Shown: piece by piece, positions 18,790 through 22,791 of the stretch
How the letters are laid out: each line of letters starts with the position of its first letter
Numbering within the stretch: position 1 is the stretch's first letter
DNA from: a virus
Virus record (IMG/VR): IMGVR_UViG_3300020159_001113
Span: 1-23,071 of that record
Reading direction: 5' to 3' (one strand)
DNA length: 23,071 nucleotides
Notes under the pieces: generated by a model
What the model saw: only the letters and a program-made list of their open reading frames with translations
The model's database searches: none
What the model was told of the DNA's origin: nothing
Position numbers and translations under genes: made by a program

Positions 18790-18795
18790 TATAGT

Positions 18796-18803
18796 TAACT
18801 TTG
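18796..18803 (+). promoter_or_regulatory. Bacteroidetes -7 box (TAACTTTG) at the late/early boundary
   Basis: TAACTTTG matches TAnnTTTG. A TTG at 18770-18772 (within TTGAC) lies 23 bases upstream, within the reported range for the -33 element. Transcription would start around 18809 and run through the hairpin at 18836-18860 towards the early small-gene operon. Confidence 0.55.
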
Positions 18804-18835
18804 TATATCTGATTTTTTCTTGTTTTCTTCGGTAG

Positions 18836-18860
18836 AAGCGGCTTTTTATAGGTCGCTTTT
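18836..18860 (+). terminator. Terminator-like hairpin in the boundary region
   Basis: AAGCGGC (18836-18842) pairs with GTCGCTT (18852-18858), 7 bp with one G-T pair, around a 9-base loop. It is followed by a short T-run. An overlapping alternative hairpin is CTTC-GGTA-GAAG (18827-18838), so two folds compete for the same bases. The structure could end late transcription from upstream or attenuate the promoter at 18796. Confidence 0.5.
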
Positions 18861-19026
18861 ACTATTTCTAAAAAATATTTTCAATTATTTTTCTCAATGT
18901 TTACGCGGGTTTCAGCGATATTTGCAAAAGTTCTTACCTTTTTTTTCACATAAATAGTTGTTATATTAAAATAAATTTCTAATTTCACAATGTCAATGAG
19001 ACACAAAACAAGAAAAACAAGAACAG
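18861..19026 (+). promoter_or_regulatory. AT-rich intergenic leader of the early small-gene operon
   Basis: This stretch has no convincing gene. It is very A+T-rich, with T-runs at 18890s and 18939-18948. A weak promoter candidate is TTG at 18958-18960, 19 bases before TAATTTCA (18980-18987), two mismatches from the consensus. Next is an A-rich leader (CAAGAAAAACAAGAACAG) before ATG 19027. Confidence 0.35.
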
Positions 19027-19191
19027 ATGAATCCTTACAAATTCCAATTTTTAGACAAGAATGGCTACGTAATCGAAGAGAAGATTAAGTGGTGTACTTC
19101 AAAACAAGATGCCGTTAAAATGGCAAATAACTATCTTGCAGAATGTCGCGACGGTGACGTAGTTAAAGTAAAAAATTTCAGAGCGTATTAA
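19027..19191 (+). CDS. 54-aa protein, first gene of the early operon, unknown function
   Basis: The product begins MNPYKFQFLDKNGYVIEEKI and ends VVKVKNFRAY. It looks like a small alpha/beta protein: two strands, a helix (SKQDAVKMANNYLAEC), then strands. The start is preceded by an A-rich leader typical of this genome, and the stop is 2 bases before the next ATG. No family is recognised. Small proteins of this kind head early operons in many Bacteroidetes phages. Confidence 0.6.
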   Translation: MNPYKFQFLDKNGYVIEEKIKWCTSKQDAVKMANNYLAECRDGDVVKVKNFRAY

Positions 19192-19193
19192 TT

Positions 19194-19286
19194 ATGGAAC
19201 AGAAATCAGACAAGCAAATGTTTTGGGAAGGCATATTATTTTTCCTTCCGGCAGTATTCATTTTAATATTCTTTTTAATAATCTAA
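19194..19286 (+). CDS. 30-aa single-helix membrane peptide
   Basis: The gene is 31 codons including the stop. The product starts MEQKSDKQMFWEG and continues with one membrane helix (ILFFLPAVFILIFFLII) that runs to the C-terminus, so a short charged N-terminal tail would lie in the cytoplasm. The spacing of 2 bases to the genes on both sides argues that it is translated. Function is unknown; tiny early membrane peptides in phages can act on host membrane proteins or exclude other phages, but nothing here shows that. Confidence 0.5.
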   Translation: MEQKSDKQMFWEGILFFLPAVFILIFFLII

Positions 19287-20211: not shown

Positions 20212-20373
20212 ATGAAACAGAAAAAAGAAAAACAGATTAAGCCAATGATTCCATTGATGAAAATAATGGATTACTGGAAAAAAGGACATACTTGCGAAGG
20301 TGACAAAGGCGGATCGTTCAACCTGAATCTATACTTGGATTATTGCAAAGTAAAGGAGATGAACAATGCCTAA
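20212..20373 (+). CDS. 53-aa basic protein upstream of the DnaA-like gene, unknown function
   Basis: The product begins MKQKKEKQIKPMIPLMKIMD and ends YCKVKEMNNA. It contains a conserved-looking middle (DYWKKGHTCEGDKGGSFNLN) with two Cys. The 6-base gap to the preceding gene and the 8-base overlap with the following start suggest coupling. No family is recognised. Confidence 0.55.
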   Translation: MKQKKEKQIKPMIPLMKIMDYWKKGHTCEGDKGGSFNLNLYLDYCKVKEMNNA

Positions 20374-20782
20374 AAAATTAGAAAGAACACGCGGTGAATT
20401 GATTAAAGTAATTAACGTACACCATTTTGAAATGTCCGACTTTTGGAGCGTTTGTCCATACACATTTGAAGGCGTTGAAAAGCGCACACGTAAACGCGAG
20501 ATAGTACACTGGCGGAACGTTGGAATGTTGTGGGCGTTTATGTCGGGAATGAGCCTACAAAAAGCCGGTGAAATATTCGACCGTGACCACGCAACAGTAA
20601 TTCACGGAATAGAAAACATCCTAACGGCTTACGAGGGTTACGGACACGTTGAATTGGTTGACATCATAAACACGATTAACGACAATCGACTAACGACAAT
20701 ATTTAAGTCCGACGATTCAAACATCAACTACGCAATTAGTCAAGTAATTTTAGACTCGCGATACAGTGAATTGAATTTTTAG
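20366..20782 (+). CDS. Orphan DnaA domain IV-like DNA-binding protein
   Basis: This 138-aa protein contains the C-terminal DNA-binding domain of DnaA without the ATPase part. Residues 42-85 read RKREIVHWRNVGMLWAFMSG, then MSLQKAGEIFDRDHATVIHG, then IENI. They follow the DnaA domain IV order: basic loop (RKREIV), helix, 'LSL..IG..F' turn, and the signature DHATVIHGIENI (74-85) that resembles RDHTTVIHACRKI. In DnaA this part recognises DnaA boxes. Here it may recruit the host replication machinery, compete with host DnaA or regulate the adjacent replication genes. The remaining residues 86-138 are helical and unrelated. The stop is at the edge of the promoter-like box for the RNA element. Confidence 0.8.
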   Translation: MPKKLERTRGELIKVINVHHFEMSDFWSVCPYTFEGVEKRTRKREIVHWRNVGMLWAFMSGMSLQKAGEIFDRDHATVIHGIENILTAYEGYGHVELVDIINTINDNRLTTIFKSDDSNINYAISQVILDSRYSELNF

Positions 20783-20886: not shown

Positions 20887-21102
20887 ATGCCTAATTTTTA
20901 CAATATGGATTATGTTAATTTAAAATGTAAGTCAAAAGAAAATGATCAGATGTTCGTTGCGATTGGACAATATGTTTCGTTTGAAGTAATTGAAAATAAT
21001 TATTCGTCTCAAATTCTAATTGATCGAAACGACTTGGAAAAGTTATTGCCTTTATTGATCAAGTATTATTACAAACTGCACGAATATGATTGGATGGATT
21101 AA
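20887..21102 (+). CDS. 71-aa protein downstream of the RNA element, unknown function
   Basis: The product begins MPNFYNMDYVNLKCKSKEND and ends YKLHEYDWMD. The first ATG (20887) abuts the terminator T-run of the RNA element; the in-frame ATG at 20905, with an A-rich context, is an alternative that would give MDYVNLKCK. The protein has a beta-rich first half (FVAIGQYVSFEVIENN) and a helical end (DRNDLEKLLPLLIKYYYKLH). It overlaps the initiator gene by 17 bases. No family is recognised. Its expression would depend on readthrough past the RNA element. Confidence 0.6.
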   Translation: MPNFYNMDYVNLKCKSKENDQMFVAIGQYVSFEVIENNYSSQILIDRNDLEKLLPLLIKYYYKLHEYDWMD

Positions 21103-21781
21103 ATTGCACAGACAGTTTTTAAACTGGGAATGGTTCAATAAAAGCGAAGCGGTTCATTTGTTTATGTATCTATTGCTTAAAGCAAATCACAAAGATGGAA
21201 CGTGGCAAGGTATAGACATAAAAAAAGGTCAGTTTATAACATCCTATGGTAAAATTTCAAGTGATACTGGCATTAGTTTACAGACGATTAGAACGCTTTT
21301 AAAAAAGTTGGAAAACACTAACGAAATTAACACGCAAACAACAAACAAATATACTGTGATAACTATCTGTAAATATGCAGATTACCAATCAGAAGAAAGT
21401 GAAACTAACACACAACTAACAAACAATCAACAAACAACTAACAATCAACTAACAACAAACAATAATAATAAGAATAATAAAGAAGATATTATAGACTTTG
21501 AATCGTTGCTTCAATATGTAAATAATGCTTTTGACAGAAAATTTAAAGTAGTAAACAAAGAGGTAAAAGCAAAGTACAAAACATTATTGAAAAGTGGTTA
21601 CGAAAAATCGGATATATTCAAAGCAATAAATAACTGTAAAAAAGATAAATGGCATAAAGAAAATAATTACCAATATTGCACACCTGAATATTTTAGTCGA
21701 TCAACCACTATTGATAAATTTTCAGATACTACCGAAAACCATACTAAAGGAATAATGTCACACCCTACAATAATTGACTGA
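21086..21781 (+). CDS. DnaD-like phage replication initiator / replisome organiser
   Basis: This 231-aa protein has the two-domain layout of phage replisome organisers. Residues 1-95 begin MIGWIKLHRQFLNWEWFNKS and continue with a winged-helix DNA-binding domain containing ISSDTGISLQTIRTLLKKLE (57-76). Residues 101-133 are a Thr/Asn/Gln linker. Residues 137-207 form the phage C-terminal domain (FESLLQYVNNAFDRKFKVVN, YKTLLKSGYEKSDIFKAINN, DKWHKENNYQYCTPEYFSRS), matching the TIGR02220-type pattern '..GY...DI..AI.....W.......Y.TPE.....'. Such proteins bind the origin and load the helicase. The linker DNA carries tandem 11-bp repeats. The last base is shared with the next ATG. Confidence 0.85.
   Translation: MIGWIKLHRQFLNWEWFNKSEAVHLFMYLLLKANHKDGTWQGIDIKKGQFITSYGKISSDTGISLQTIRTLLKKLENTNEINTQTTNKYTVITICKYADYQSEESETNTQLTNNQQTTNNQLTTNNNNKNNKEDIIDFESLLQYVNNAFDRKFKVVNKEVKAKYKTLLKSGYEKSDIFKAINNCKKDKWHKENNYQYCTPEYFSRSTTIDKFSDTTENHTKGIMSHPTIID
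21403..21457 (+). repeat. Five tandem 11-bp repeats (iteron-like, candidate replication origin)
   Basis: Consensus AACTAACAAAC. Copies start at 21403 (AACTAACACAC), 21414 (AACTAACAAAC), 21425 (AATCAACAAAC), 21436 (AACTAACAATC) and 21447 (AACTAACAACA). The period is exactly 11 bases, about one helical turn and not a multiple of three, so it is not explained by a repeated peptide. An A+T-rich tract (21458-21500) follows directly. The repeats lie inside the initiator gene, as origins do in lambda-like phages. Confidence 0.6.
21458..21500. other. A+T-rich tract next to the 11-bp repeats (possible DNA unwinding element)
   Basis: The tract contains repeated AATAATAATAAGAATAATAA followed by AGAAGATATTATAGA. 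It is almost free of G and C and lies immediately 3' of the repeat array. It encodes part of the initiator's Asn/Lys linker. An unwinding role is inferred from its position only. Confidence 0.4.
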
Positions 21782-22791
21782 TGTACAAAAGACTTTCAGA
21801 GGTTAATAGCCAAATGCACGACATCCGACACGTAAAGAATGTTAAAGGTAAATCTATTGGTTGGGATTGGGATTTACTGCCATACACAATTAAAGAAGGT
21901 TGCACGACGTATATAGGTGCTGCTCCAGCATCGGGTAAAACAGAACTTTGGTTTGAATTTTTAATCAATCTTTCGTGTTTACACGGTTGGAATCACGTAG
22001 TATTTTCACCTGAAACGGGTAATTCAGCCGAGATATATGCAGAGTTATGCTACAAATACATAGGCAAACCATATACAATTGGTGATAATTCAATGACTCA
22101 GGGCGAACAGATTCGAGCAGAGATGTTTATAGACAAGCATTTCATTGTAATTGATCCGATTGACGAGGATTTAACGCTTCCGATGTATTACAAATTGGTT
22201 GATGAAATCGAACGAAAACACAATATAAAAATTCACACAACAACAATTGATCCTTGGAACGAATTAACAGAAGAGTATATTCAAAGTGATTTAGGACGTG
22301 AGGATAAATACTTATCGCGAATACTTGGAATGGCACGAAAGAACGCACGAAAAACGGGACGACACAATTGCATAATAAACCACGTCAGAGATCAAACACC
22401 AGTAACGCGTGAATTGTTTTCAGGTGAAACGATTACTTATTTCCCTCCGCCAAGTGCGCGAGATTTTGCTGGTGGTCAAGTTTGGTTTAGAAAAGGATTA
22501 TCTGTATTGATACCTTGGCGACCGCCTACCGGATTAAAGAATAGCGACAATACTATTTGTATGGAAAATGAAGTACATTTGAAAGTTGCCAAAAGCAAAC
22601 CTAAAGGAGTAAGTAAAAACGGAACGTACAAAATGTATTTAGATGTCGAACGATATCAATACTATATGATTGATTGGAAAGGCAACCGAGTATATGCCAA
22701 CAGAAACGCGGAACCGCCAAAACAAACAACACTAAACATAGAATCAAGCAACAGTTTAAACTACATTAAGCCGGACGATTGTCCATTTTAA
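21781..22791 (+). CDS. RecA-fold ATPase / DnaB-like replicative helicase domain, no primase domain
   Basis: This 336-aa protein has a Walker A motif GAAPASGKTE (46-55), a following strand with VVFSPETGNSAEIYAELC (73-90; Glu78 at the place of the catalytic base), a Walker B region TTTIDPWNEL (153-162), IINHVRD (198-204) and GGQVWFRKGLSVLIPWRPP (231-249). 'IDPWN' and 'H.RD...A.GGQ.W.RK...V' are typical of the helicase half of phage primase-helicases and related RecA-type ATPases. No zinc finger or TOPRIM primase domain is present, so a separate primase or host primase would be needed. It follows the initiator gene with a one-base overlap, as expected for initiator-helicase pairs. Residues 250-336 are a lower-complexity tail. 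Confidence 0.8.
   Translation: MYKRLSEVNSQMHDIRHVKNVKGKSIGWDWDLLPYTIKEGCTTYIGAAPASGKTELWFEFLINLSCLHGWNHVVFSPETGNSAEIYAELCYKYIGKPYTIGDNSMTQGEQIRAEMFIDKHFIVIDPIDEDLTLPMYYKLVDEIERKHNIKIHTTTIDPWNELTEEYIQSDLGREDKYLSRILGMARKNARKTGRHNCIINHVRDQTPVTRELFSGETITYFPPPSARDFAGGQVWFRKGLSVLIPWRPPTGLKNSDNTICMENEVHLKVAKSKPKGVSKNGTYKMYLDVERYQYYMIDWKGNRVYANRNAEPPKQTTLNIESSNSLNYIKPDDCPF

Follow-up and report, generated by a model that had tools for sequence, protein, structure and literature searches.

The question raised by this locus is whether the phased short repeats that lie inside a predicted phage initiator gene mark the origin from which the phage replicates its DNA. The window (the whole stretch of DNA analyzed, 23,071 nucleotides) is a linear virus record of about 23 kb; head and packaging genes occupy its left part, and replication genes its right. 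The initiator gene (21086..21781, + strand) was assigned from a match to the phrog_2514 profile. Its predicted product of 231 aa can be divided approximately into a winged-helix N-domain (residues 1-101), a linker rich in N, Q and T (residues 102-135) and a C-terminal domain (residues 136-231). Comparison with relatives indicates that the repeats are very probably helically phased iterons for the N-domain, located in the linker-coding DNA, and that together with an adjoining A+T-rich tract they would constitute the phage replication origin.

The array consists of five imperfect 11-bp direct repeats at 21401-21455 in the linker-coding DNA of the initiator gene. Tandem Repeats Finder (TRF) delimited it as 21403-21455, with a period of 11, 4.8 copies and 85% matches. 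The repeat starts given in the first-pass annotation (21403, 21414, 21425, 21436 and 21447) are exact. The copies read in that phase (AACTAACACAC, AACTAACAAAC, AATCAACAAAC, AACTAACAATC and AACTAACAACA) are imperfect, with 0-2 mismatches to the consensus, and an exact-pattern search for two perfect repeat copies found none. Our units begin two bases further to the left and are, all on the + strand, iteron copy 1, GAAACTAACAC (21401..21411); copy 2, ACAACTAACAA (21412..21422); copy 3, the variant ACAATCAACAA (21423..21433); copy 4, again ACAACTAACAA (21434..21444); and copy 5, TCAACTAACAA (21445..21455). The adjoining 40 bases, described earlier as A+T-rich, do have that composition: the tract at 21461..21500 (+ strand), a candidate DNA unwinding element, contains 6 G/C in 40 positions (15% G+C). 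Both parts of an origin-in-initiator layout are present, namely direct repeats within the initiator coding sequence and an A+T-rich element adjoining them.

At a lag of 11, the array gives 36 matches out of 44. This score was reached in 2 of 5000 synonymous recodings of the initiator gene made with the codon usage of the record, and in 0/5000 codon-order shuffles and 0/5000 first-order Markov linkers. No other 11-bp array in the record scores as high as this 36/44; a site within the initiator gene, some 100 bases further upstream, reaches 25/44, and the remainder of the record 22/44. An in-frame period of 18 bp (NTQLTN/NQQTTN/NQLTTN) fits the array equally well, with the same TRF score. The frame-shift argument, from which the first-pass annotation had taken selection on the DNA as the simpler explanation, is therefore indecisive from a single sequence and weak when taken alone, so that relatives are needed; the explanation itself was upheld by them.

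Viral contigs and the genomes of bacteria and archaea supplied the relatives, which were reduced to 71 lineages with less than 70% N-domain identity. Autocorrelation was measured on the 84 nt that follow the N-domain, using as the null synonymous recoding with each lineage's own codons. In the 71 lineages the mean at lag 11 was 0.527, against 0.415 after synonymous recoding (z 20.7) and 0.338 after codon shuffling, and further peaks over synonymous recoding were found at lags 22 (z 17.2) and 33. The preceding N-domain DNA of these lineages had a lag-11 mean of 0.297 and no signal at 11, 22 or 33. A hold-out set was assembled from 52 new lineages, found with two other alignments and having less than 70% identity to all earlier ones; here the lag-11 value was 0.547 against 0.429 for recoded sequences (z 18.6), with a z of 15.2 at lag 22. 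When five named phages were added to the 71 lineages, the best local lag was 11 in 47 of 76, and most of the others had 12, 22, 23 or 24. Lags of 11-12 and 22-24 correspond to about one helical turn or its double; 12-bp or irregular spacing occurs in some lineages. Among 11 records of 23-40 kb (10 longer phage records and this one), the linker was the strongest 11-bp array in all 11.

The letters of the repeat vary among these sequences, being AAGGGCAAGCA in Cellulophaga phage phi18:3, NGCAAACGAAT in a Vibrio phage, ACAAATCAACA in Staphylococcus phage SAP33 and ATCAACCAACG in lineage L189. Different letters at the same 11-bp spacing are what the first-pass annotation had proposed to look for in related phages, and the spacing recurred in the hold-out lineages; conserved linker amino acids lacking the DNA periodicity, which it had named as contrary evidence, did not appear among the relatives. 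The commonest repeated 6-mer was located in each of 118 lineages, and in 106 of them its copies are spread over two or three frames. Between the record and its near relatives, identity at third codon positions reaches 0.83 across the linker as against 0.62 across the N-domain, the linker value being the higher in 43/43 comparisons. These results support selection for an 11-bp DNA period beyond protein coding. A single stretch of DNA would here obey two codes, since each 11-bp step falls out of register with the triplet reading frame. Three circular plasmid-form records, of Pediococcus, Subdoligranulum and Bacillus (L401, L402 and L403), also carry such an initiator with a best linker lag of 11 and are likely phage-plasmids. 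Two public records look mislabelled: OQ791282.1, "Shigella phage Henu10", has the same match coordinates and identity as Riemerella phage vB_RanS_PT15, and PP511318.1, "Dulem virus 31", is filed under Microviridae, yet is 35.8 kb long with tailed-phage-like replication genes.

The initiator had been called DnaD-like, a description that holds for one half of the protein. Residues 1-134, the N-terminal half, match the phrog_2514 profile "DnaD-like helicase loader" with an E value of 4.7e-32, but the DnaD C-terminal domain (TIGR01446), which is present in the SAP33 and TP901-1 initiators, was not found in this protein. Its C-terminal part has weak matches to PF09524 (E 4e-4) and TIGR02220 (E 4e-5). 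There was no match to the RepA_N domain (PF06970), and a sequence search of the PDB gave weak winged-helix look-alikes, the best with an E value of 0.026. The next gene (21781..22791, + strand), whose start shares one base with the initiator stop codon, has a P-loop (GAAPASGKTE) and is RecA/DnaB-like; from its matches to phrog_5482 (E 1.5e-38) and to the phrog_239 DNA primase/helicase profile (E 1e-9), its product is probably the replicative helicase. Upstream of the initiator, 20366-20782 encodes a 138-aa protein with the DNA-binding DnaA domain IV (PF08299, E 6e-10), and a similar DnaA-like gene (508-975 of L219) lies upstream of the initiator of Cellulophaga phage phi18:3. Near-matches to host DnaA boxes number 5 across the record, no more than in shuffled sequences, and thus no DnaA-box origin is seen.

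Each lineage was assigned to a repeat class by the commonest of AAC, GAC and GGC before [AC]A; the classes were chosen after the first set had been viewed, and the rule was fixed before the hold-out test. Among 99 variable N-domain columns, residue 66, in the recognition helix (S-x-66-x-x-R-T), ranked top for repeat class in both sets. In the first set Q66 occurs with AAC in 31 of 32 cases, K66 with GGC in 5 of 6 and R66 with GAC in 8 of 11; the z value for the column was 10.6, which 0/2000 permutations equaled, the largest family-wise null value being 8.0. In the hold-out set the z value was 9.7 (0/2000), with a family-wise 99% null of 6.5 and one rare-residue permutation at 13.6. On the best tree, made with the helix columns left out, 17 independent pairs contrasting Q with K or R changed in the same direction, 0 in the opposite direction and 5 showed no difference; the tree is poorly resolved, and its well-supported (starred) branches leave 3 independent pairs. 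Contacts between Gln and adenine and between Arg or Lys and guanine are common in DNA-binding helices, so the direction of the association is the expected one. The covariation supports a reading in which residue 66 of the N-domain recognizes the variable iteron bases (Q-AAC, R-GAC, K-GGC). In the record this predicted base-reading residue is Gln66 (codon at 21281..21283, + strand), in the helix S-L-Q-T-I-R-T. Two Asp66 lineages show TCC. The linkers of L172 and L180 associate Asp66 with TCC or TTC before the C[AC]A core, and Ser66 with TGA or TCG; both residues may be further letters of the code, in few cases.

Two further features concern the DNA beyond the array. The 40 nt that follow it have 25.5% G+C compared with 38.1% in the part coding for the C-domain, the value being the lower one in 97 of 106 relatives. 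The N-domain cluster to which the initiator belongs has 44 further non-identical members, none of which carries the C-domain of the record, and relatives of this C-domain sit behind other N-termini. Eight initiators that share the C-domain alone were examined, and these have in-frame repeats of 6 or 12 bp and no 11-bp period, which indicates that the array travels with the DNA-binding domain. The comparisons place the apparent point of domain exchange just after the A+T tract. In L031, L032, L034, L035, L036 and L041, which have the shared C-domain and other N-termini, the in-frame 6/12-bp micro-repeats code for VNVNDN or DSVSVS.

From the 11-bp step in relatives, the covariation with residue 66 and the conserved A+T neighbor, we infer binding, melting, helicase recruitment and the start of replication at the array, and the earlier proposal of an origin inside the initiator gene gains support to that extent. 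Several initiator N-domains would bind next to one another along a single face of the helix, one per approximately 11 bp; the adjoining A+T tract would then open, and the C-domain would recruit the helicase that the next gene encodes. A minimum of GC skew at the array, which had been proposed as a check, was not seen in the 23-kb record. In ten longer relatives the mean relative distance from the skew minimum to the linker was 0.28, against 0.5 expected (p 0.007, uniform null); this trend is weak as evidence for an origin, being confounded by gene direction and by possible incompleteness of the records.

Of the other explanations, the one that survives best, though we regard it as unlikely, is that the array is a true N-domain site with a mainly regulatory role (autorepression, road-block or handcuffing) and that the origin lies elsewhere, for example in the 430-bp gap at 18790-19222. 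The covariation speaks to binding specificity and not to origin function, the record has no skew minimum at the array, and the record does have a non-coding gap that contains repeats and inverted arms of 13 bp; however, the array is separated from the start codon upstream by about 320 bp, which would be unusual for an operator, its A+T-rich neighbor is conserved and, by analogy, proven systems use such arrays as origins. The gap itself, of about 430 non-coding bp, has its inverted arms at 18814-18826 and 19005-19017, 178 nt apart, and is a possible regulatory region or alternative origin. It is decidedly improbable that the repeats reflect neutral slippage expansion, or serve as a joint at which N- and C-domain modules recombine, with no protein bound: such a joint would agree with the swapping of C-terminal domains just past the array, but neither process predicts the residue-66 covariation, a step held at 11 bp across many lineages or the high conservation at synonymous sites. 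Least credible is selection on an N/Q/T-rich flexible peptide linker alone, the DNA period being a by-product of six-residue peptide repeats, which fits the equally scoring in-frame 18-bp period of the record and the conserved linker residues of near relatives but is already contradicted by the excess over synonymous recoding at lags 11, 22 and 33 in two sets, by repeat copies in two or three frames, by distant lineages that differ in residues while keeping the DNA rhythm, and by the covariation with the recognition residue.

The origin reading of the array can be set beside several known systems. Origins inside initiator genes are already known for lambda, TP901-1, Tuc2009 and pSK41. In lambda, ori-lambda lies inside the initiator gene O, with iterons beside an A+T-rich element. 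The lambda iterons are longer, dyad-symmetric and about two turns apart, whereas the units here are of 11 bp and have no dyad; the initiator of the record has a partial O-like match to phrog_345 (E 6e-8). In the lactococcal phages TP901-1 and Tuc2009, the replisome organisers (ORF13 and ORF16, respectively) are reported to bind repeats that lie within the genes encoding them and act as the origin (PMC8965321). Like the gene studied here, both are annotated as DnaD-like initiators and have direct repeats in the linker of their own gene, and TP901-1 Rep shares phrog_186/428 matches with the initiator of the record. Their repeat periods differ, however, being 15/22 in TP901-1 and 15/10/20 in Tuc2009 as against 11 here, and their N-domains lie outside this family, undetected by the N-domain profile used.

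In the Rep of pSK41-type plasmids, a RepA_N protein, the target of the N-domain is a set of four Rep boxes midway along the gene, and the linker encoded there is dispensable as protein (PMC5703833). A phage-like N-domain and origin region have replaced those of pSK41 in the pPR9 chimera, which replicates on its own; N-domain and origin were thus exchanged as a block, giving a new specificity (PMC5703833). The placement of the boxes centrally in the gene, where the linker is encoded, is a shared feature, and the initiator of the record would work alike without being a member of that group: it lacks the RepA_N domain, and its C-domain and host group differ. A search of plasmids returned no match of the staphylococcal pPR9 type. 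The phrog_2514 loaders, among them those of Cellulophaga phage phi18:3, Vibrio phage 1.182.O and Staphylococcus phage SAP33, have the same N-domain family and an 11-bp linker array in other letters, but differ in their C-domains. No mapped origin was found for these loaders in the literature searched.

No paper on 11-bp repeats in phage initiator genes was found in the searchable literature, and older subscription papers could hold parts of the account. The residue-66 code looks new, as does the family-wide, out-of-frame 11-bp array, which recurs in phages from many phyla. We think it likely that helically phased 11-bp origin arrays, out of frame with the linker codons, are a feature of a large family of initiators from phages and phage-plasmids of Bacteroidota, Bacillota, Pseudomonadota, Chlorobiota and other groups, and that one recognition-helix residue sets the variable iteron bases (Q-AAC, R-GAC, K-GGC and perhaps D-TCCC). 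The family offers a natural series for the co-evolution of initiators and origins, and direct tests become possible of the N-domain/origin module and of how phages exchange it. In uncultivated phages origins are almost never known; here one gene gives a candidate location to the base and a predicted specificity. If the proposal is true, origins and their specificity would be readable from sequence in very many uncultivated phages.
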